This document shows, in pieces, positions 2,024 to 63,895 of a DNA stretch of 64,000 nt (positions within the stretch are counted from its first letter, which is position 1; each line of letters opens with the position of its first letter). The DNA is taken from the NCBI GenBank assembly GCA_030386875.1, contig CM059569.1, positions 48,895,842 to 48,959,841 on the forward strand, read 5' to 3'. The notes beneath the pieces were generated by a model. It was given only the letters and a program-made list of their open reading frames with translations, did no database searches and was not told where the DNA came from. Both the position numbers and the translations under genes were made by a program. Source of the DNA: Morinoia aosen (taxonomy: Eukaryota; Arthropoda; Malacostraca; Amphipoda; Talitridae).

Positions 2024-21835
<19,812 letters not shown>

Positions 21836-38649: not shown

Positions 38650-41616
38650 TTATTGAGACACAAGATGACGAGTTATTTTGGCTTTAAATTCTCTCGGTCT
38701 TTGAGGGACTTTAATACTCAGGGGAAGTTTGTTCCACAGTAAGGCGCCTGATATGGACAGAGCCTTCTGCCCTAAGTGAGATGAACGATAGTTGACTAAG
38801 ACATTATTGTTTCTGTTCGGTTTTTGATTGGTTACAGTGGGTGGATGGAAACGCACTATCTCAGCATTGCTCTGAGGAAGATATAACGAGGAGAATACGT
38901 ATTGGGCCTTCTGCATGAGGAGCCTTTCTTGGATAGGGATCCAGCCGAGTTTATTGAGGAGAGGGGTTACGTGATCACGTCTTTTGAAATTACCGTTGCA
39001 TACCACCTTGGCTGCAAAATTCATGCATTTTTGTAAGTCCCTTTGAAGGTATTGAGGTAAGTCTCCCCATACTAGGCTGCAGTAGTCAATGCGCGATAAC
39101 ACAAGGGATTGAATGGCTAATAATCTGGATTTTTCGTCTAGCATACTTTTTATTCGATGAAAAAACATTAAAGTTCCGTAGATTTTGTTGCAAGTAGTCT
39201 CAACGTGAGATTTGAAGGACATATTTCTATCGAACCAGATACCTAGATTTTTAACTTTTTCTGATGCATCAATTTTATCATTTCCAACTGCAAGAGTAAG
39301 ATCTGAAGTTTTTTTAATTGCATCTTTGGATCCAAAAATGATGCATTGTGTTTTGTTAGCATTTAATTTGAGACCATTTCGGTCGTACCATGATTTCAGG
39401 CTAGTCAGTAAAGTTTCGGCTTTAATTTGCGTCTGTGGTATTTCCGATACAGAACTTGTTATTGCAATTTGAACATCATCTGCATACATAGAGATCCGTG
39501 TGTTAGAAGGCATTGGAGGGAAATCATTAATGAAAATAGAAAACAGTAGCGGACCAAGAATGGATCCTTGGGGAACACCAAAATTGTTTTGAATGAATGG
39601 GGACAATTTGTTTTCTATGCGGACTGCATGAGATCGATTTGACAAGTAACTTTCAAACCATTGCGTGTCTATTCCCAAGTTCAGTATTTTACGTAGAAGT
39701 CTTTCATGTTGGACGCTATCGAACGCCTTAGAGAGATCGAGTAGTAGCAAGAGTGTTACATTCTTTTGATCGATGTCACTGTATATTTTTTCAGATATAT
39801 TGAGCAGAGCGTCTTGAGTGCTAGTATTTCTTCTATAGGCATATTGATTTTGGTGGAGTAAATTTGACTCGTCCAGGTGAAATGACAGTTGATTTGTCAC
39901 CACTTTCTCCAGTAGTTTGGACATGACAGGCAAAAGACTGATGGGCCTGTAGTTTGATGCTGTATTTAGGTCACCACTTTTGTGCAACGGTCTAATAATG
40001 GAGTGTTTCCATTGGTTTGGAAACGTATTGGTTACTATTGATGTATTAATTATCAGACGAATCCATGGTGCTGTAACAGGGAAACTATCTTTGATATATT
40101 GAAGACTGATACCATCATGTCCAACTGCCTTTGTGTTTTTTAGTGAGTATAAGATGTTTCGTAACTCTGGTAAATCGACAGGGCGTGGTCTCCACTTGAC
40201 ATCAGTCCTCGAGGGTGCAGTGGGGCATGAATTTTCAATTGTCGTTTCATCTGGATTGGTACACACCTCACTGAAAACTTGAGCCCCTACTTTTGAAAAG
40301 AATGTGTTGAAATCCGTGGCTGTTGCCAAGGGATTTTCAAAATTACTTATGCGATCTAAATTTTTATATGGGGCTACCTCACTAATGATTTCCCAAGTTC
40401 GCTTCGGGTTATTTTTAGCCGTTATCAGTGCCTGGTGGAAGTGAGTTTGTTTCGCTTCAGTGATTTTCTTTCGAAGAATTTTTTCATGTTCTTTATATCT
40501 CTTGTATAAGGTACTGTTTGATCTATTGTTTTTGTACTCTCGCAAGTTAGCTTTCTTTATTCTGCTCATCTCTTTAACTTCGTCAGTGATCCAAACAGTT
40601 CGTTTTGGCTTGGTTTTTTTGGTGACGTAAGGTGCACATTCGTCGAGAGCTGCTGTGAAGTTCTCGTTGAAAATTGACACTTGTATATCAACATCGTCAG
40701 ATTGCATCATTTTCTGGAATTCGGTAGACCTATCGAGTAGTTTTTCTTGAAATAGTTCTGCTGAATAGTGCCTTTTCGAGCGATAGGTCATTAAGCGGTA
40801 TTTTTGTCTTTCCTTCGCAATATTAATTTCACATTCTATAGAGTGGTGATCGGAAATAGAAGGTGATATTACTGTACTAAGTATTGCGGTGGGATTATTT
40901 GTGATTGCTAGATCGAGGAGAGTTGCAGAGATTTTAGTGATGCGAGTCGGTTCTTTGACCATTTGTGATAAGCTTAGTTTATACAATAGTTTGCTTAGCT
41001 GATTGTTTTTATCCGTTAGGTCAACATTGAAATCTCCGAAAGCAAAGAATGATCTTTTTGCCTGAAGGATTTCTTTGAAGGTTTCCTCAATGAAATCTAG
41101 TGTTCGATTTAGGGGAGACGATGGGTGCCGGTAAAGGCTGCCAATGATTATTGATTTGTGTTTATTTATTTGCACTTCTAACCAAACCATTTCAATGCCT
41201 TCGCAAACTTTATTCACTAGTAGTGAAGATGTTGAGTACATTTCTTTCACAAAAATACAAGATCCACTACCTCGGCTGGTTTTAGCGCCATCGTAGCGGT
41301 ACAACACGTAATCAGGAATGTTAAAAAATGAACTTTGGGTTCGTGAATCAAACCATGTTTCTGAGACACACAAAATGTCAATTTTTTCAGTGACCAACAT
41401 TACTCTGATTTCATCCAATTTACCATTCAGGCTTCGAGCATTTACATGCTTAATTTTGATTTTACCTATATTAGCACTCTTTTTAAAGGTAGCGAGGTTA
41501 CTACTATCTCTACTATCTTCAGGGGATTTATCGATTTTGTCTAAGTTGCCCAGGGTGTTTGGCCCAGCATCTGCTATGTAAGAAAGTCTACTATTTGGCT
41601 GGGCAGCGGCACTTTG
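38650..41616 (-). CDS. LINE ORF2: AP-like endonuclease and reverse transcriptase
   Basis: The frame is open for 988 codons after the ORF1 stop. Endonuclease motifs in order: KHVNARSLNGKLDEI, CVSETWFDS, IIGSLYRHPSSP, FFAFGDFNVDL and SPSISDHHSIE. Reverse transcriptase motifs: AVGHDGISLQYIKDSF, IIRPLHKSGDLNTASNYRPI, LLLLLDLSKAFDSV, GVPQGSILGPLLFSIFINDF and the catalytic MYADDVQI. A typical C-terminal region follows (LARIDYCSLVWG-like, then LLWNKLPLSIK) and the frame ends at TAA/TGA-type stop 38650-38652. All catalytic motifs seem present. The first in-frame ATG (41400) lies after the endonuclease Asn motif, so a full-length enzyme needs another mode of initiation. Confidence 0.92.
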   Translation of the reverse strand, partial: QSAAAQPNSRLSYIADAGPNTLGNLDKIDKSPEDSRDSSNLATFKKSANIGKIKIKHVNARSLNGKLDEIRVMLVTEKIDILCVSETWFDSRTQSSFFNIPDYVLYRYDGAKTSRGSGSCIFVKEMYSTSSLLVNKVCEGIEMVWLEVQINKHKSIIIGSLYRHPSSPLNRTLDFIEETFKEILQAKRSFFAFGDFNVDLTDKNNQLSKLLYKLSLSQMVKEPTRITKISATLLDLAITNNPTAILSTVISPSISDHHSIECEINIAKERQKYRLMTYRSKRHYSAELFQEKLLDRSTEFQKMMQSDDVDIQVSIFNENFTAALDECAPYVTKKTKPKRTVWITDEVKEMSRIKKANLREYKNNRSNSTLYKRYKEHEKILRKKITEAKQTHFHQALITAKNNPKRTWEIISEVAPYKNLDRISNFENPLATATDFNTFFSKVGAQVFSEVCTNPDETTIENSCPTAPSRTDVKWRPRPVDLPELRNILYSLKNTKAVGHDGISLQYIKDSFPVTAPWIRLIINTSIVTNTFPNQWKHSIIRPLHKSGDLNTASNYRPISLLPVMSKLLEKVVTNQLSFHLDESNLLHQNQYAYRRNTSTQDALLNISEKIYSDIDQKNVTLLLLLDLSKAFDSVQHERLLRKILNLGIDTQWFESYLSNRSHAVRIENKLSPFIQNNFGVPQGSILGPLLFSIFINDFPPMPSNTRISMYADDVQIAITSSVSEIPQTQIKAETLLTSLKSWYDRNGLKLNANKTQCIIFGSKDAIKKTSDLTLAVGNDKIDASEKVKNLGIWFDRNMSFKSHVETTCNKIYGTLMFFHRIKSMLDEKSRLLAIQSLVLSRIDYCSLVWGDLPQYLQRDLQKCMNFAAKVVCNGNFKRRDHVTPLLNKLGWIPIQERLLMQKAQYVFSSLYLPQSNAEIVRFHPPTVTNQKPNRNNNVLVNYRSSHLGQKALSISGALLWNKLPLSIKVPQRPREFKAKITRHLVSQ

Positions 41617-44280
41617 TCAAGATGAGGTAACCCCGGTCTGATTTTTGCCTTGTGTGACAAGAGCACTGAAGTGATCGTTTTTACGATGGAGCAGTAGTGG
41701 AGGGTTATTATTTGATAACTCTGAAATGGGAACGATTGATATTTTCAAAACACAATGATCTTTTTCATCCAGGACGAGAAGTTTTTGGCCTGTCACATTT
41801 GAAATGATTAGTGGTATAAGGTCTACAGCAGCTTGGTCAAAATGTTTTTCGTTAATGTAATTATCTATGAGGTTTTGCATGTCGCCACTGTTCTTGTCAA
41901 AAAACTTAGCATATGTGCTGTAGTTTGCTTTACTCTCTGTTTTGATTGCAGCCTTTAGGGAATTGTAATTCCATTTTGATGCTGGTTGTTTTGTAAGTAG
42001 TTGAGCTACTGCGTGGAGGAGGCAGTGTCCATCGGCTTTGGTGGGAATCAGTTTTATGTTCCATGATCGTTTCAATTCATCCATTGTGGAATTCATGCGT
42101 TCACAAATGCGGCTGGAGACGTTTTTTTTCGCACTTTTTTCATCATTAAGAGGTTCTGAGAGGTGCGGGGAATTTACGTTTTTCTGGCTCTGAATTCCTG
42201 TTCTGTGGTGATTTCTCGTATGGGGATTTGCAGAGAACTGAGAAATGCTCGTGTCAATTATATTTTTCTGGTGATGATTGTGCATACCGTTGGGTAGTGG
42301 ATTTTCCATCGATTGTCGACTGCAATTTTGCAGCGATTTCTCTCTTCCTATTGATTTTACTGCTTCCGAGTATGTGATTGGATGTTGATTTATACTCGTG
42401 TCTGAGAGGGGCTTTTCATCCTCTTCATCAGCATTGGATAGCAATGAAAACCTATTTTTTGTAGGCACTCCGCAGTTGTTTGTGGCGGATGCAGGAGAGG
42501 GCTTGTTATATGAGGGCAAACATCGGGAGGAGAGGGGAGGAGAGGGTTTGTTATATGAAGGCAAACATCGGTTTATGCTGCTGGAGGTTTCACGTGGATA
42601 GGCGGTCAACTTAGAACAATCATTCAACTCATTTAGCTGTTTTGAATAATCATTAGAGTATTCAATTTCTTCATTCAGATCATGGGAGTTTCTGACACAG
42701 GAGATAAAATGTGAAGTTAGTCTCAAAGGTGATTTTAGAGCAATTTGTTGAAGAAAATGATGCGTGTCTTCTCGCGTAACGGGCCAAGTGCGGACATTGT
42801 TGTAAGCTTCATCAACAGGACCGGTTTTTACATTTGCTCGCAGCGGAATCAGTTTAAGACCAATTTTTCTGCACAGGCTCGATGCCATGTACAATTGCTG
42901 CCCACTGCAGGCACTCACCACATAAATACGAGAAAGAAGATTCTTTGTCCTGATCAAATTTTTTAATTTCGTGAGATTTTGGGACGAGAGGCTCAAACCT
43001 TTGAAACTAATTATATAATTCCTGAAAGCAGGTGCGCGTTCAATCTCATCATAGAGATCATTTAGACGTTCCGAAGTTATGGTCTGAATCCTGCATGCAC
43101 TATCAATGTCATCTCTGTTGATTTTTGTGAGACTATTGTCTCCAACGAGAAAAGTGTCTAAAGGGGATTTCGCATAAGGATGGTTACTCGCAGCTACCAC
43201 TGGCGTAAAATCATGAGCGCTGATACGATAATTTAAAGCAAAAAGCTGTTCTGTAATCACTTGAATATTTGATACAGTGGAAAAAATCGACGCTGGGCTT
43301 GGGGGACAATTTTGTCTCAAAGCTTTATTGAGAAATGCAGCTGTAAGAGACAGCGTGTTATTTATTTCGTGAATAGTTTGGGAACTGGTCATTTGGAGAG
43401 GATGTAAGTACCCATCAAAAGCGGTAACAGGTCTGGTTGTATTTTTCTCCACTGAAAATCTTACGTTATCCTCGCAGTTTACGCTCTGAGGTATTTTACT
43501 GCCAGTATTAGCTGCTTCGTATGCATTTTCAAACATAACTTCGCCACCTGAAAGGTCTACACACAATTTATCATTAAAATTATAATTAAAATTACCCCTT
43601 TTACTCTCTGACTGGTTGCACACATCCAAAATTTTATCGCGTTCTAACGATGACGTTGGTGTTTCCGTCGGCGGTGATAGATTTTGAGCTTTCTCAGTGA
43701 CGCAGGGCAGGGGCGACGTCGCCATGACGCAATCGTTTCGGCGAGACGAAGGAGCTCGCAGTGCTGTGGCAGCTTCCGCCAGTGAGGACGTATCTTCTTC
43801 ACTAAAGATTCTCGGCTTTGTGGACGATGAATCTTCTCGGACACAGTCCAAAGCGTGGGGTTGAGAGTCGAGTGCTGCTTGTACGGAATTTCTTGAACTC
43901 GCTTCGGGTGTGCCCGTAGCAGGTTTCAGAACTTGAGAAGATGAATTATTACTGGGAGCTGAATTATTACAAGCAGCGCCTGAGAGATTTTCGCCCGTGT
44001 CAGATGACTCTGATTTTGCAGTCATTAGTGATGCTTCAGGGGCTGAGAAACACTTGCTGATACCAGACTTCACGAACGTCCGAGAAGCATTTTTCGTTTT
44101 GAGTGTTTGAGGACCTTGAACAGATGGATTCACAGGGGCGGATTTATTAGGTCTGCCTTTCCGCTTTATGGCTGGTGCTTGACGCTTTTTACTGAGCTTT
44201 TCGTGCGAAGCTGTACTGGAGGATGTTTTTTCAGATGGAGCAACCTTCCGAGTAGTTGAACGAGTTCTATATTGATACAT
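41617..44280 (-). CDS. LINE ORF1 protein with C-terminal OTU cysteine protease domain
   Basis: 887 residues. The N-terminus is strongly basic with an AT-hook-like KRKGRPNK (about 40-47), followed by a long Ser/Thr-rich, low-complexity region. The middle (about 390-560) looks globular but I do not recognise it. A ten-residue CLPSYNKPSP repeat occurs twice (about 580-610). The C-terminus (about 735-880) has OTU hallmarks: KADGHCLLHAVAQLL with Asp750 and catalytic Cys753, then LLVLDE, then KNDHFSAL with His870. OTU enzymes are deubiquitinases. The role here is unknown; processing of the ORF product or removal of host ubiquitin are possibilities only. No CCHC zinc knuckle is visible. The frame ends at TGA (41619-41617) and continues open behind it into ORF2. 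Confidence 0.82.
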   Translation of the reverse strand: MYQYRTRSTTRKVAPSEKTSSSTASHEKLSKKRQAPAIKRKGRPNKSAPVNPSVQGPQTLKTKNASRTFVKSGISKCFSAPEASLMTAKSESSDTGENLSGAACNNSAPSNNSSSQVLKPATGTPEASSRNSVQAALDSQPHALDCVREDSSSTKPRIFSEEDTSSLAEAATALRAPSSRRNDCVMATSPLPCVTEKAQNLSPPTETPTSSLERDKILDVCNQSESKRGNFNYNFNDKLCVDLSGGEVMFENAYEAANTGSKIPQSVNCEDNVRFSVEKNTTRPVTAFDGYLHPLQMTSSQTIHEINNTLSLTAAFLNKALRQNCPPSPASIFSTVSNIQVITEQLFALNYRISAHDFTPVVAASNHPYAKSPLDTFLVGDNSLTKINRDDIDSACRIQTITSERLNDLYDEIERAPAFRNYIISFKGLSLSSQNLTKLKNLIRTKNLLSRIYVVSACSGQQLYMASSLCRKIGLKLIPLRANVKTGPVDEAYNNVRTWPVTREDTHHFLQQIALKSPLRLTSHFISCVRNSHDLNEEIEYSNDYSKQLNELNDCSKLTAYPRETSSSINRCLPSYNKPSPPLSSRCLPSYNKPSPASATNNCGVPTKNRFSLLSNADEEDEKPLSDTSINQHPITYSEAVKSIGREKSLQNCSRQSMENPLPNGMHNHHQKNIIDTSISQFSANPHTRNHHRTGIQSQKNVNSPHLSEPLNDEKSAKKNVSSRICERMNSTMDELKRSWNIKLIPTKADGHCLLHAVAQLLTKQPASKWNYNSLKAAIKTESKANYSTYAKFFDKNSGDMQNLIDNYINEKHFDQAAVDLIPLIISNVTGQKLLVLDEKDHCVLKISIVPISELSNNNPPLLLHRKNDHFSALVTQGKNQTGVTSS

Positions 44281-44520
44281 TGTGACGTTGATAGAGAGGA
44301 AGAAAAATTAAAATTTGTTCATTGGGTTAAAGTAGAAGACCTCGCCTTTTAAAGGTAGATAAAAAGAGACTGCCAGTAGGAAAGCAAGGGGGGGGGGGCT
44401 TGGGGTGCAAGACAGAGGAGGACAGAGTGTGAGCGGGAGGAGGGGGCAGGATGCTTGCGGTCGGCAGAGCAGCGTTGCTTGCTGTCCTGCTTGGGGAAGA
44501 AAAGAGAACAGAAAAAATTG

Positions 44521-56474: not shown

Positions 56475-59400
56475 ATGTCTCTTGTTGAGAAATTGATGAA
56501 AGAAACAGGTAAGATAATTCTCCGCATTTCAATTAATTAGGTTGTCAAGACTTCTTATCAGTCTCAATTTATGGTTAAGGGAAACTGTCGATATAGCAAT
56601 TGTGCAGCAACACATATGCTTTGCTCACTAAAATGAGTCTTTCGATTCTAAAATTGGTCTTCAAGGTCTGGCCAGTCCAATTTCAATGTCATTTAAAGTA
56701 AATACTGTAATATTATAAACTGCATTATACTGAGTTTGTTATGTAATTAATGGGCAGTAAATCTTTAAAAAATATTTTTATGCATATCAACTAAATTTTT
56801 GTCCTAATTTTATTTAATTTTCACTGTTTTCTGATATAACTCATAAATTATCTGTTGAATTTTGTCTTGAAAGTGACTTATAATTTTTTAGAAGCATTAC
56901 AGCAAAATAAAATGATCCTAAATTATCATTTGCAGGAGCTGACAAAACAACTGCTCAGTACTTACTGGAAGCTTGCAGTGATGACTACCAAATGGCAGTG
57001 GTCATGTATGCTGATATTCAGCCATCTACATCAGGTGCCCAGGTAACATTTTAGTCTCTAGGCCCGGTTATAATCAATAACATCAGCACTTACAGAAAAA
57101 TTGAAGGAACCTAAAGAATAAAAACTCACAATAGCAATGATTGGTGGTTCTAGTTTTGGTTTATTGTAGGGAGCAGCAGTTTATGTGTAGTTATTTGGAC
57201 TAGTTACTTGTGAAATTGAGCTTTTTAGCTCTTTTCTTAAAGATACATGTTTATAAATACTTAATTGAGGGTCATCCAGCGTTGTGCTATATCCAAAGTT
57301 TTTACAGAAAGATAGTCTAGTAATTAGCTACTCTGAGTACCTTGTACTGTGTGTCATTGTCTCATTTGGATTAGGAATTTGGATTTGTTTGTTGGAGAGT
57401 GAGAAAAGCTGCAAGGCGCAATGTCACTTGTTGAAATTTGTATCTTCTAATTAGATCAGAATTTGAAATTTTTAGTTTACACTTTTGAGTTGGTAACTGG
57501 CATATTTGTTAATGACTGCTAGATAATTATCTATAATTAAGAACCTCCTCTTCAAAGAAAGATCTATGGGTAAATTGTAAATAATATTTTATCAAATTAT
57601 CTACTTTGCTTCTTTTTTTTTCATTATGCTCCCACTCTTCAGGGGGCAAAGAATGAGCAATGGGTGTAAATTCATTTACCTATTTTATGGGAGGTAACTG
57701 GCTAGGATGGATGAGTAAATTGATATAGATAGGCAGAGGGGACTCGCATTTGTTGTGTTTACTTTATTTCTTTTAGTGTTCATGCATTCTATGCTGTCTC
57801 TTCTTTATCTTCCCTTATGTACTGATTCTATACCCTGGGTATCCAGTGTTGAAACACACCTTGTACATAAATTGCCCATTGCCTTCAATCCTAAGTGAAT
57901 GGTCCCTAGCCTTGGTTCTTTTGAGATTGCCTATGATGTTGCTGAGGAGTTGCAATCTCAGTGCATTTTACACTTCATTTTTCCTGCATCATAAGATAGT
58001 GGTTCATGGGAACATTCATGCAGACACAGAGACTGATTTCTTTTGTCAATAGCAATAGAAATCAGTCTCTGTTATTATGTATTTGGGCCTTTGTATATGT
58101 TTTGTACACAATTTTTTCTCTTTTTAACTATTGAATCTTTTATCAGATGACAGTTCACAAAGTATCGTATGAGGATGTAGCTACTGTAGGGATAGCAATT
58201 ATCTGTCCCAGGAAAATATGGTAGGCATAATAATAGATAAGCCAACTTTTTGTTGAAATAAAATATTTTTTAAATTTGTTATAAAGTATCTCTTAGTAGT
58301 TCACTGCTTTCTTTTATTTTAGAACTTACTACTTTATTTTCCAACTTTTATTTCGTTTCATCACCTTTCAACCTTGCCCTTTCTATGTGCAAGGAATTTG
58401 ATGTGGGAACATGTGAACACTGAAGGGTGCCATCTTCTTCTCCCTATTGGAGATGCATTTTGTGTGGTTTGGGTGGCTAAAACTAACTTTGATTTGATAT
58501 TATAAGAACTAAATTCAGTTAGAGGTGCAATTTAGGGTGATATATTTTTCTGCTGTCTGTGTCTGAAAGATAATGGGTAAACAATTTGCAAGGTAGTGAG
58601 AAAATAACAAAATTGATTTGTTGGAAGATAAAGCTGATTGCTGAATGAGATCACTTGCCAGAAGGCTTTTGGAAACCTTAATTGAGACTAATATATACAA
58701 AAAAACAAAAGATATTATGAAGCTGATCATGAATATACTCATTGCTCACTTTCATTGGTTCAAGTAATGGGAGAATGTGCTCACTATTTTATGCTCTTAA
58801 CCTAATTGAATGGTTTACTGTGTTCCAAATTCATTCATTATTGAATATTATCAATTCTGATAATGTGCATACACTGGTGATAATTGCCATCTTGTGTAAA
58901 TAAATGTACTTTCAAGATTTTTTGTTTTATCCTACATATTTTTTTCATCAAGTGTTTGCCGTGTGTAGCTGTCTGTTAAATTTTCCTTCTGCGTGGGTTT
59001 GAAAATACACAACTCATTACCATTATTATGGTGGATATATGTGTTTGGTGTTCACATCAGAAGGATCATTAAAAAAACTCGAGTAGGTACTGAAGAGCAT
59101 TACAAATATCATTTTCACAGACTTTCTGTGCAGTGGATCAGATTATGGTTGTGTTATATGTAATTCTAAGTTTATTAATTGGTTTATGAACTCTTTAAAA
59201 GATTATCATGGGCTGGTCATTTTAGGTTAGCTGTGTACAGTATGTTTGATTTTACATAGATACATCGAATCTATTATGATGTTTAACTATTTACTATAAT
59301 TTTTTGTTGCTTTGAACTAACACTGCAAGCTTTCCTGCAGACTTGTTCTAAATCAAGTTTCTCACGCTTTCCTGCAGACTTGTTCTAAATCCAGTTTCTC

Positions 59401-62400
59401 ACGCTTTCCTGCAGACTTGTTTTAAATCCAGTTTCTTACACTTTCCTGCAGACTTGTTCTAAATCAAGTTTCTCACGCTTTCCTGCAGACGTGTTCTAAA
59501 TCAAGTTTCTCACACTTTCCTGCAGACTTGTTCTAAATTAAGTTTCTCACGCTTTCCTGCAGACGTGTTCTAAATCAAGTTTCTCACGCTGTTCTGCAGA
59601 CGTGTTCTAAATCAAGTTTCTCACACTTTCCTGCAGACTTGTTCTAAATCAAGTTTCTCACGCTTTCCTGCAGACGTGTTCTAAATCAAGTTTCTCACGC
59701 TTTCCTGCAGACTTGTTCTAAATCAAGTTTCTCACGCTTTCCTGCAGACTTGTTCGAAATCAAGTTTCTCACACTTTCCTGCAGACTTGTTCTAAATCAA
59801 GTTTCTCACGCTTTCCTGCAGACTTGTTCTAAATCAAGTTTCTCACGCTTTTCTGCAGACGTGTTCTAAATCAAGTTTCTCACGCTTTCCTGCAGACGTG
59901 TTCTAAATCAAGTTTCTCACACTTTCCTGCAGACTTGTTCTAAATCAAGTTTCTCACGCTTTCCTGCAGACGTGTTCTAAATCAAGTTTCTCACGCTTTC
60001 CTGCAGACTTGTTCTAAATCAAGTTTCTCACGCTTTCCTGCAGACTTGTTCGAAATCAAGTTTCTCACACTTTCCTGCAGACTTGTTCTAAATCAAGTTT
60101 CTCACGCTTTCCTGCAGACTTGTTCTAAATCAAGTTTCTCACGCTTTTCTGCAGACGTGTTCTAAATCAAGTTTCTCACGCTTTCCTGCAGACGTGTTCT
60201 AAATCAAGTTTCTCACACTTTCCTGCAGACTTGTTCTAAATCAAGTTTCTCACGCTTTCCTGCAGACGTGTTCTAAATCAAGTTTCTCACGCTGTTCTGC
60301 AGACGTGTTCTAAATCAAGTTTCTCACACTTTCCTGCAGACTTGTTCTAAATCAAGTTTCTCACGCTTTCCTGCAGACGTGTTCTAAATCAAGTTTCTCA
60401 CGCTTTCCTGCAGACTTGTTCTAAATCAAGTTTCTCACGCTTTCCTGCAGACTTGTTCTAAATCAAGTTTCTCACGCTTTCCTGCAGACGTGTTCTAAAT
60501 CAAGTTTCTCACGCTTTCCTGCAGACGTGTTCTAAATCAAGTTTCTCACGCTTTCCTGCAGACGTGTTCTAAATCAAGTTTCTCACGCTTTCCTGCAGAC
60601 GTGTTCTAAATCAAGTTTCTCACGCTTTTCTGCAGACGTGTTCTAAATCAAGTTTCTCACGCTTTCCTGCAGACGTGTTCTAAATCAAGTTTCTCACACT
60701 TTCCTGCAGACTTGTTCTAAATCAAGTTTCTCACGCTTTCCTGCAGACTTGTTCTAAATCAAGTTTCTCACGCTTTTCTGCAGACGTGTTCTAAATCAAG
60801 TTTCTCACGCTTTCCTGCAGACTTGTTCTAAATCAAGTTTCTCACGCTTTCCTGCAGACGTGTTCTAAATCAAGTTGCTTACGCTTTCCTGCAGACGTGT
60901 TCTAAATCAAGTTTCTCACGCTTTTCTGCAGACGTGTTCTAAATCAAGTTTCTCACGCTTTCCTGCAGACGTGTTCTAAATCAAGTTTCTCACGCTTTCC
61001 TGCAGACGTGTTCTAAATCAAGTTTCTCACGCTTTCCTGCAGACTTGTTCTAAATCAAGTTTCTCACAGGTGACATCACCCCTAGGTGTAGAGGATGCAG
61101 TGCGGGCACCCATCCCACCCAAGTTTGAAGTGCTGTGTCCAGAGCCACAGATGCCCGTGCCTCTCCACCAACACCGAGTTCCGTCTGCTTGGGCTGCTGC
61201 TCCCCACAACACCGCACCATTCAGAGACTTTGAGCATGAGACGAGTGAGCTCCCGTAGACATTGCTCCTGTATGCTACGTAGTGTTTTGCCAGAGCAGTC
61301 ATTCTCGGTGATCTTCATTACCATCAGGGATTCTGTTCTGGATTAAATAACTTTTGGTGCATATCTCAAGCATGCTAATTAATTTCGAATTATTAACTCA
61401 CAATTCAAGAGAAGTTGTGTGAAAAAGCTCAAGTTTCCTAGTGACTCATTCTATTCATTGAAATTAGTCTTCAACTTGTGTTAGAAACTTATTGTAGTAG
61501 TGCTAAATTATTAGAATTTTGGTGTTGCCACTGCCGCATTAAAATTTGGTATTGCTACAGTGGTTATAATTCATTGTAGTTCCCCTTGGTGAGCTTGAAT
61601 TGTCAGCTGTTTAAAATTCACCTTTGTTTTTTTTCTCATAGGATTACTTTGTGTTTCTAATTCTCTATTAGGGCAAATCATTACTGCAAACACAGGCACA
61701 CAGCCTAGGAGATGATTGAGGTCATAAGATGTAGGTTCGGTAAGCAATCCTTTTGTTGAAGTGGTATGGCTTTTCATCTTTATTTTGGCCCATCTTGTTT
61801 TTGATTCACTGCTGTCCTCGACTCTCTCATTACCTTGCCAACATTTATCTTATTTCATAAACGTCTTCCTGTTATACTGTTTATATGTGCAGTGAAATCT
61901 TGTCTGGGAAAACACTTGTACATGAATACCCTTAGTTCCGAAGTAAATAGTGTCTTCATCTTTTTTTCTTGGGACTACATTTTATGTTATTAGGAAAGCT
62001 TGATTGACTTAGAACCTAATCAACACAGCCACAGAAATTTCACCTCTTAACTCAGAAATATTAATATCTAATATTTTTTGATGGTGCAGAAACTAAAGTC
62101 TGATGATGATTTCGACAATCAAGATGGCAGTGTGTAATTATCTAAAATTGAACAGTTTAATTTGAAATATTTGCTTTGAAAATTTGATCTTTGAATTTCC
62201 TTTTATGCAACAACATCAATGTTGTTAGTTTGATCGTTATATTTATCACAATCTCAGTTTCTATGTTTTGTGTGCAGGATTGCAAGAGCAGATGATGGGA
62301 CTGGGCAGTGGCATATTTGGCACAGGCCAAAACAGACCAGGACCACGGGATGGAGCGGGACCAAGCTCTAGTAAGTCTTGAGAGAGCTGCTCCCAGACTC

Positions 62401-63895
62401 ATAGTTCTCTTTACTCTCACTGCTGCTGGCCTTCTCTATGCTTCAGTGTTGACTTTGACTCTATGCTTTGTTGACTAGGTCAACAAACATCGAAGTTATT
62501 ATTGTGCAGACCCTGTCATTGTTATGCTGTCCCTCCAGTTATGTGCTTCACAGGGTATGGCTTTATGAAATTCATTAGAAATTTTTTTTTTTTTTTAATT
62601 TACATTTATGGGGGCGAGATCGTTTTATTCATGCAATTTTGCTTTGGTCAGTGTTATTTCTCATGTCAATGTTTAGTGTGATGTAGCTTAAAAATTCACT
62701 TCCTATTTCACATTGAGAACTAATTTAAGAATAACTATTGCAATACTTAGCTCTCAAAAGAAATAACCTATTGTATAGAGTTCATGTTATTTGATCTGCT
62801 GTTCAGCTCTCTACCCTCACATCTGAGCAGGAAGGACAGGCAAGAACTCCAAACTGTCTGGGGACAAAATTGACTACAACGCCAAGCTCAAGAAACTGGA
62901 AGATCTCTTCAAGCCTCCTCTCGACATCATCTACAAGGGATCTTTCTTTATGGTAGGTCATTAAATCTTTATTTTGAGCTTTGACCTTTATTATGGGTCA
63001 TTACGCCTTTTTATGGGTCATCAAGTATATTTTACGGTTGGTCATTACATTTTCATGGTGGGTTGTTTCATCTTCCTTTATGGTGGGTCAGTACATTTTC
63101 ATTTGTTATAGGTCATGACATTTTCATTTATGATGGATTATTACATCATTACTGCTAGAAGTAAAATATCTTTATAATCCAGGAATTATGGTCCACAGTT
63201 GTTGATGCCTGCAAAGTCAGATGGTGGGAGTCTTCACTCGCATTCCGTTTACTGTACTGTTTATAATTCCTTTTATACGATCAGAAGGTATGATCGTGGT
63301 AGATGGGAAGAAGTGAAATGAGACGGTCAAGTGAGAAAGATCTTTTTAAATAGAAGCACAGAGTGTTTGCTGAAGACCATTCAGAGCTTAGAAAGCTTGT
63401 TGGCCTTGATGTTCTGATTAGCGCCTGTTTTACCTTCTGCGCCAAAGTACAGTAGATAGAAGTTTGCTCCACTGTGACAAAAGTGATCTAGGTAGACCTT
63501 GCTGGGTCCTGCCTTGAAGGGGCGGTCGGGATATATAACCGCGAAACGACCAATGCGCGCATGCTGTGATGTTAATAAATTCTCTCGATTCATTTTCAAG
63601 CATTTCCTTGTCCCTTTTCTCTTAATACTTCAACGAGAAAACGAGCATCCTGCTCCGGGAAAAGGCTAGTAGTTAAGCAAACCATTAATGATGATTTATA
63701 CTCGCTTGCACTTCACATTAAAAGGAATGGGACTGACTTGCATTTCAGGCTCGAGAAGAAGGCAAGACAGCAGGGAAGTGGCTGCTGGCTAACATCCAGG
63801 ACAACGACGACTTTGCCTGCCACAAGCTCAACAGAGACGTTTGGGCAAACACCAACGTCCGAAAGTTACTGGAGGGTCACTTCTTGCTCTGGCAG
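56475..63895 (+). CDS. UBXN7: UBXN7-like UBA-UAS-UBX protein, 5' part (continues past right edge)
   Basis: Adaptor that in other animals links ubiquitinated substrates to the p97/VCP ATPase and binds neddylated cullins. Exons 56475-56508, 56936-57042, 61070-61244, 62278-62370, 62831-62952 and 63749-63895, all GT-AG with consistent phases, give 226 residues and then the window ends. Residues 1-38 form a UBA-like helix bundle (MSLVEKLMKETGADKTTAQ, then YLLEACSDDYQMAVVMY). The linker keeps the family signature EDAVRAPIP (about 55-63). From about 158, KLEDLFKPPLDIIYKGSF, then GKWLLANIQDNDDFACHKLN, RDVW and GHFLLWQ match the start of the UAS thioredoxin-like domain. The UBX domain lies outside. 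The start is supported by the upstream in-frame TAA. Intron 2 (4 kb) contains a 1.74-kb tandem array ending exactly at the exon 3 acceptor. Confidence 0.9.
58026..58072. repeat. perfect 15-bp hairpin in UBXN7-like intron 2
   Basis: Arms 58026-58040 and 58058-58072 (ACAGAGACTGATTTC and its exact complement) are separated by 17 nt. Too short for a typical microRNA precursor; it may be a small foldback remnant. Confidence 0.6.
59331..61069 (+). repeat. 37-bp tandem array, 47 units, ending at a splice acceptor
   Basis: TTTCCTGCAG recurs every 37 bp from 59331 to 61033: 46 steps of exactly 37 bp with no net indel, so 47 units. Each unit continues as ACNTGTTCTAAATC, then AAGTTTCTCACGC. Common variants are ACTTG/ACGTG, CACGC/CACAC, TTTCC/TTTTC and TGTTC. 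Larger blocks are repeated too (for example 59700-59960 resembles 59990-60250), indicating higher-order duplication. Each unit looks like a pyrimidine tract followed by CTGCAG, a 3' splice-site-like motif and a PstI site. The last unit ends CACAG instead of CACGC, and that AG (61068-61069) is the acceptor of the third UBXN7-like exon. Confidence 0.95.
62943..63150 (+). repeat. degenerate repeat of the UBXN7-like exon 5 donor region
   Basis: The exon 5 end and donor (TTTATG then GTAGGTCATTAAATC) recur in degenerate form about seven times in the following 200 bp, for example TTATGGGTCATTACG, GGTTGGTCATTACATTTTC, TTTATGGTGGGTCAGTACA and TATAGGTCATGACATTTTC. Spacing is about 20-27 bp. Several copies retain GT-containing donor-like words. 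Confidence 0.6.

Follow-up and report, generated by a model that had tools for sequence, protein, structure and literature searches.

A 64,000-nt window of the genome of the talitrid amphipod Morinoia aosen (assembly GCA_030386875.1, contig CM059569.1, positions 48,895,842 to 48,959,841, forward strand) carries, in an intron of a UBXN7-like gene, a minisatellite of 47 near-identical 37-bp units that ends flush against the predicted acceptor of the following exon. We consider it probable that this minisatellite originated when the acceptor region of the intron itself was duplicated in tandem, and that it is tolerated through the use of the exon-proximal splice sites. The elements concerned are listed here, with positions counted from the first base of the window and a slash marking a predicted splice junction:

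59329-61067, forward strand: tandem array of 37-bp units (n = 47) of 10 types, consensus GCTTTCCTGCAGACGTGTTCTAAATCAAGTTTCTCAC, no indels
59315-59328, forward strand: sequence adjoining the array on its left, containing CTAAC at 59317-59321; the A of this motif precedes the end of the first GCAG by 20 nt
61041-61042, forward strand: AG of the last unit, TTTCCTGCAG/ACT, an in-frame alternative acceptor that adds nine codons, TCSKSSFSQ
61068-61069, forward strand: AG just past the array, TTTCTCACAG/GTG, the acceptor proposed in a preliminary description of this DNA
57043-61069, forward strand: intron holding the array, 4,027 bp, about 43% of it array if the acceptor is 61069
61070-61244, forward strand: UBXN7-like exon, VTSPLGVEDAVRAPIPPKFEVL...FRDFEHET, entered in phase 0 and left in phase 1, donor GTGAGC

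Tandem Repeats Finder placed the array at 59329-61067 with a period of 37, 47.0 copies and no partial units (95% matches, 0% indels, score 3128); the runner-up among its 33 rows for the window scored 369. Together with a unit-by-unit layout, in which 47/47 units are exactly 37 bp and AG forms the next two bases, this agrees with the preliminary count of 47 units of 37 bp without net indel. The interval given there (59331-61069) had the right size and copy number but lay two bases too far to the right and included the AG. The last unit had been said to end on this AG, which does directly adjoin the array, but positions 61068-61069 lie outside it, where a further unit would have GC or AC. The pyrimidine-rich GCTTTCCTGCAG attributed to every unit is exact in 31/47 (summed over the 10 unit types) and varies in the others, while CTGCAG is present in all 47 and CTAAAT in 44. 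The order of the unit types also carries a record of growth: units 9-18 are identical to units 17-26, and a repeated block of 10 units occurred in 0/2,000 shuffles of unit order, where the longest was 9, which suggests that the array grew by multi-unit duplication. Unit agreement at a lag of eight units was 0.49, a value that the best lag reached in 1.25% of shuffles.

The unit has the geometry of an acceptor. In the consensus, the branch-point-like A of CTAAA precedes the end of GCAG by 26 nt, the sequence before the AG is pyrimidine-rich (at least 8/10 pyrimidines before GCAG), and no further AG occurs more than 10 nt past the putative branch point. Our rule for acceptor-likeness was set after the unit had been seen and has a loose form and a strict form, the latter of the CTAA type; among 37-mers taken at random from either strand of the window and tandemly repeated, the strict form held for 94/20,000 and the loose form for 844/20,000. 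In place, a YTNA motif precedes 45 of the 47 GCAG sites by 15-40 nt, with no AG more than 10 nt from that motif, a count that covers the branch-point motif and the AG spacing alone. The GCAG of the first unit relies on the CTAAC of the left flank, 20 nt away, a full match to the branch-point consensus. Because the flank carries this motif, a single collapsed unit between the flanks would still read as a normal intron end. A stringent branch-point-plus-acceptor pattern, scanned over the window, was uninformative: it matched once, where shuffling predicted 5.05 matches.

The unit is also confined to this locus. Searching the 1.99-Gb assembly with up to three mismatches returned 90 hits, 90/90 of them on contig C14 within the array or a duplicate of it, and a reversed control returned none; these counts may be lower bounds, as copies diverged beyond three mismatches escape the search. 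No unit was found at an unrelated locus at this threshold, although several such loci would be expected of a dispersed satellite or a transposon-borne repeat. The 37-bp unit does not have the look of a roaming satellite, because all 90 hits fall in two copies of one locus. With its acceptor geometry and its flush position at the exon, this confinement supports the earlier proposal that the array grew out of the acceptor region.

The second copy lies 0.918 Mb away on C14, within a duplication that spans at least 76 kb at 99.0% identity (window coordinates ~239-76287, aligned to C14 from 47978133). It continues upstream: for 4 kb of flanking sequence on that side there is a single further full match, at the corresponding place. 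In the second array 47 units were again counted, 45 of them identical to those of the first. Between 30 and 65 kb, compared in 1-kb bins, four substitutions separate the copies (456 in 75,938 compared columns overall), and two of the four, too few to interpret, fall in the array (59727 and 60057). The preliminary description expected copy number to be highly polymorphic; the equal unit number is uninformative on length stability, because both arrays sit in near-identical DNA. Divergence between the duplicates rises outside the ~30-65 kb stretch, and the block may have arisen by gene conversion or recent duplication, or may be a haplotype copy retained in the assembly. Contig C7 carries two similar loci ~2 Mb apart (98.7% identity over 3.0 kb), a hint that duplicates within one chromosome, which may be retained haplotypes, occur repeatedly in this assembly.

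Which acceptor is productive was judged from the reading frame. Among the 96 AG dinucleotides between 59300 and 61069, the frame is open to the end of the exon from three alone, 60985, 61042 and 61069. The first of these (CAAG) is an unlikely site, because it lies just 6 nt past a branch-point-like A, as counted on the unit. Of the GCAG sites, 46/47 run into stops and the last, 61042, is open. These unproductive sites, with the frequencies of CTGCAG and CTAAAT given above, bear out the preliminary remark that dozens of 3' splice-site-like motifs lie upstream of the exon. Its exon start at 61070 is indeed open, in phase 0 and compatible with the donor at 57042, but a start at 61043 is equally in frame and open. 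The predicted exon could therefore begin at 61043, as the GCAG ending at 61042 is in frame and is followed by no stop.

If 61042 is the true acceptor, the unit would comprise 12 nt of intron and 25 nt of exon, a duplicated intron-exon boundary, and TCSKSSFSQ would precede VTSPLG in the protein. We regard this as a possibility of the minor sort, and one compatible with the origin that we favor. The extra 27 nt are in frame and free of stops, and branch-point spacing is better for 61042 (26 nt, against 16 nt for 61069). However, these 27 nt have the G+C content of the rest of the intron (33% in both) rather than that of the exon (58%), and the base at 61070 is a G, which is also the first exon base at two other apparent acceptors of the gene (56936 and that of the UAS exon near 63748).

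Under the duplication reading, 37 bp at the 3' end of the intron, holding a branch-point-like motif, a pyrimidine tract and an AG, would have been tandemly duplicated into a minisatellite, which would then have expanded by multi-unit duplications and left behind 46 upstream acceptor-like copies, unproductive if used. Through exon definition, the spliceosome would pair an acceptor with the donor at the far end of this short exon (175 or 202 nt), and 61042 and/or 61069 would be chosen. Given an intron of 4 kb and an exon of 175 nt, the upstream units would mostly be ignored, and mis-splicing would give early stops. The array is probably harmless or mildly noisy; this near-neutrality, the choice of acceptor and the acceptor origin are what we infer from the sequence. 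Several points count against this account, beginning with its dependence on an ancestry and an acceptor use that are reconstructed in this way. The flush ending has no clean probability, as the acceptor rule is post hoc and the array had been picked for its position in the preliminary description. For an acceptor at 61069 the spacing would be tight: the A of the nearest branch-point-like CTAAA is at 61053, just 16 nt upstream, and a further AG intervenes. In addition, shuffled versions of the unit complied with the loose rule in 573/5,000 cases and with the strict rule in 80/5,000, more commonly than random 37-mers of the window, and base composition therefore explains part of the acceptor-likeness.

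Minisatellites are common in introns. An unrelated satellite might thus have landed beside the exon by chance, its position being a coincidence and its units acceptor-like as shuffled units often are under the loose rule; we hold this to be quite improbable, given that the unit is itself acceptor-like and that no other location besides the duplicate was found for it in the 1.99 Gb at up to three mismatches. That the copy number is an artefact of assembly is more doubtful by far: the locus does occur twice on one chromosome and one occurrence may be a retained haplotype copy, but both copies have 47 units, 45 of them identical, with intact flanks, and 1.7 kb is presumably short for long reads. 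A functional alternative, in line with the effects on exon inclusion, branch-point choice or splicing speed suggested in the preliminary description, is that the decoys matter, with upstream acceptors capturing some of the splicing, the resulting early-stop transcripts being degraded, and the length of the array tuning the output of the gene. Stops follow 46/47 GCAG sites and a branch-point-like motif is in range of 45/47, as this alternative would have it, and the length of a donor-side repeat in human ABCA7 correlates with skipping of exon 19 (PMC5954066). By eye, however, the unit has no AG/GT donor, so that decoys would mainly lengthen the exon, and the lancelet genes described in PMC3087553 and PMC3902484 are reported to splice normally despite many repeats with splice signals. 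We judge an effect of the decoys unlikely, and very unlikely a length-tunable splicing rheostat in which dozens of acceptor-like sites stand against two productive proximal ones and the unit number sets the balance between productive UBXN7-like mRNA and early-stop loss.

The array resembles known splice-boundary minisatellites, the closest class being the lancelet "mirages". These are known from amphioxus Adh3, the globin genes BflGb6 and BflGb9, and troponin C, where many of the repeats carry splice signals and splicing is reported to be undisturbed (PMC3087553, PMC3902484). The predicted tolerance of the array in the UBXN7-like gene fits these reports, which in turn lend it support. The array belongs by these same accounts to a repeat class already described, a point passed over in the preliminary description. 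Like the mirages, it consists of near-identical units in tandem (47.0 copies without indels, 95% matches) at a splice boundary, with a repeated splice signal, the exon here being predicted. BflGb6 shares the acceptor side, its repeat covering the 3' end of an intron and the start of exon 2, and the Adh3 units of 10-72 bp bracket the 37 bp found here (PMC3087553). Whereas the two reported BflGb6 haplotypes have six and three units, the present array has 47 near-perfect ones. It differs further in its host, an arthropod rather than a lancelet. The mirages have exon as well as intron sequence within the unit; here this is a candidate feature at most and true just if 61042 is used, 61042 and 61069 both being in frame. 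Length instability between haplotypes is a further trait of the class, and the two genomic copies here, both of 47 units, lie in DNA too similar to bear on it.

Two human variable-number tandem repeats (VNTRs) offer a second comparison. The repeated donors of one of them, in CBS, are subject to alternative use. This 31-bp VNTR, c.1444_1467+7(16_21), is likewise a minisatellite of fixed unit length, its name spanning coding sequence into intron, but it is polymorphic with 16-21 units and lies on the donor side, unlike the 47 acceptor-side units of the UBXN7-like gene (PMC2630376). The 25-bp VNTR of ABCA7 intron 18 is also flush with an exon, begins with a splice site and has slightly varying units; it too is on the donor side, in contrast to the present array, and the correlation of its length with exon 19 skipping shows that boundary arrays can matter for splicing (PMC5954066). 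The present UBXN7-like case was not among the papers listed by our literature searches.

The exon at 61070 is probably real, and its neighbors in the gene are:

56936-57042, forward strand: upstream coding exon of the UBXN7-like gene, translated with a UBA-like end, its frame ending SGAQ; donor CAG/GTAACA, phase 0
63746-63895, forward strand: segment of an exon further along this gene, encoding a thioredoxin-like (UAS) domain, Pfam Thioredoxin_7, E = 1.3e-10, 41.6 bits against a cut-off of 27

The upstream exon has a weak match to Pfam UBA_4 (E = 0.01; 16.1 bits, under the cut-off of 21.8). Its acceptor TTTGCAG/G is preceded by CCTAAATTATC, and there too a CTAAAT lies before the TTTGCAG. No Pfam family matched the exon at 61070-61244, which resembles UBXN7; the order of domains and motifs (UBA, VRAPIP, LxDLFxPP, UAS) is presumably that of UBXN7. 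Further downstream, at ~62.9 kb, the frame reads LEDLFKPPLDIIYKGSF; several candidate joins after 61244 lead to this stretch, and a small extra exon near 62.3 kb is possible. Among the five UBX matches reported for the genome, none is on C14. No UBXN7 paralogue lacking the array was found, the exon peptide matching the two copies of the locus alone (two matches among three scored candidates).

A coding role for the array was considered and rejected, since stops interrupt the forward frames inside it, mostly every 36 codons. Among stop-to-stop frames of at least 30 amino acids that overlap the array, the internal forward ones are mostly 36 amino acids long, with two of 73, and the longest frames (92 amino acids on the forward strand and 95 on the reverse) are those running into the exon. 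No known structured RNA was found at 54-64 kb at the gathering threshold. When four stretches of units were folded against shuffles, one folded better (z = -2.54; 4/200 shuffles as good) and the other three gave z of 0.39, -1.03 and -0.08, a result on which we base no general claim of structure; a T-variant unit can be drawn as an ACUUG/CAAGU hairpin enclosing the branch-point-like motif.

Elsewhere in the window, a pair of long open frames resembling a non-long-terminal-repeat retrotransposon occupies 38650-44307 on the reverse strand. Its 988-amino-acid frame has endonuclease and reverse transcriptase matches, and the preceding frame of 896 amino acids has a weak OTU-protease-like match (E = 0.0042, below the cut-off); an OTU domain in an ORF1 would be unusual. 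A fibrillar collagen gene lies at ~2307-12912, also on the reverse strand, with Gly-X-Y open frames and a COLFI domain (E = 1.5e-32). Among other contigs of the assembly, C27 carries several stop-free COX1-family frames and 20/24 Thioredoxin_7 matches, which suggests pooled unplaced or bacterial sequence. Mitochondrial-type COX1 occurs twice on C28 (at 2209 and 20565, 18,356 bases apart) and also on C26 and C29, and these copies may be a mitochondrial concatemer or nuclear copies; transfer RNA scans of two mitochondrial pieces gave no match. The COX1 protein and the order of the mitochondrial genes suggest an arthropod, perhaps an amphipod crustacean. Near 1930-2240 of locus L017 lies an element of ~300 bp, with 38 of the 41 further matches listed also ~300 bp long, at 94-97% identity and spread over many contigs; of 9,177 first-look candidates, 40 were scored. 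This element is a young interspersed repeat.

The array in the UBXN7-like gene would extend boundary minisatellites to an arthropod, to the acceptor side and to a high and very regular copy number. It would also provide a natural assay of how the spliceosome chooses a single 3' splice site when dozens of near-identical sites are on offer, in which either exon definition hides the decoys or the decoys cost expression.

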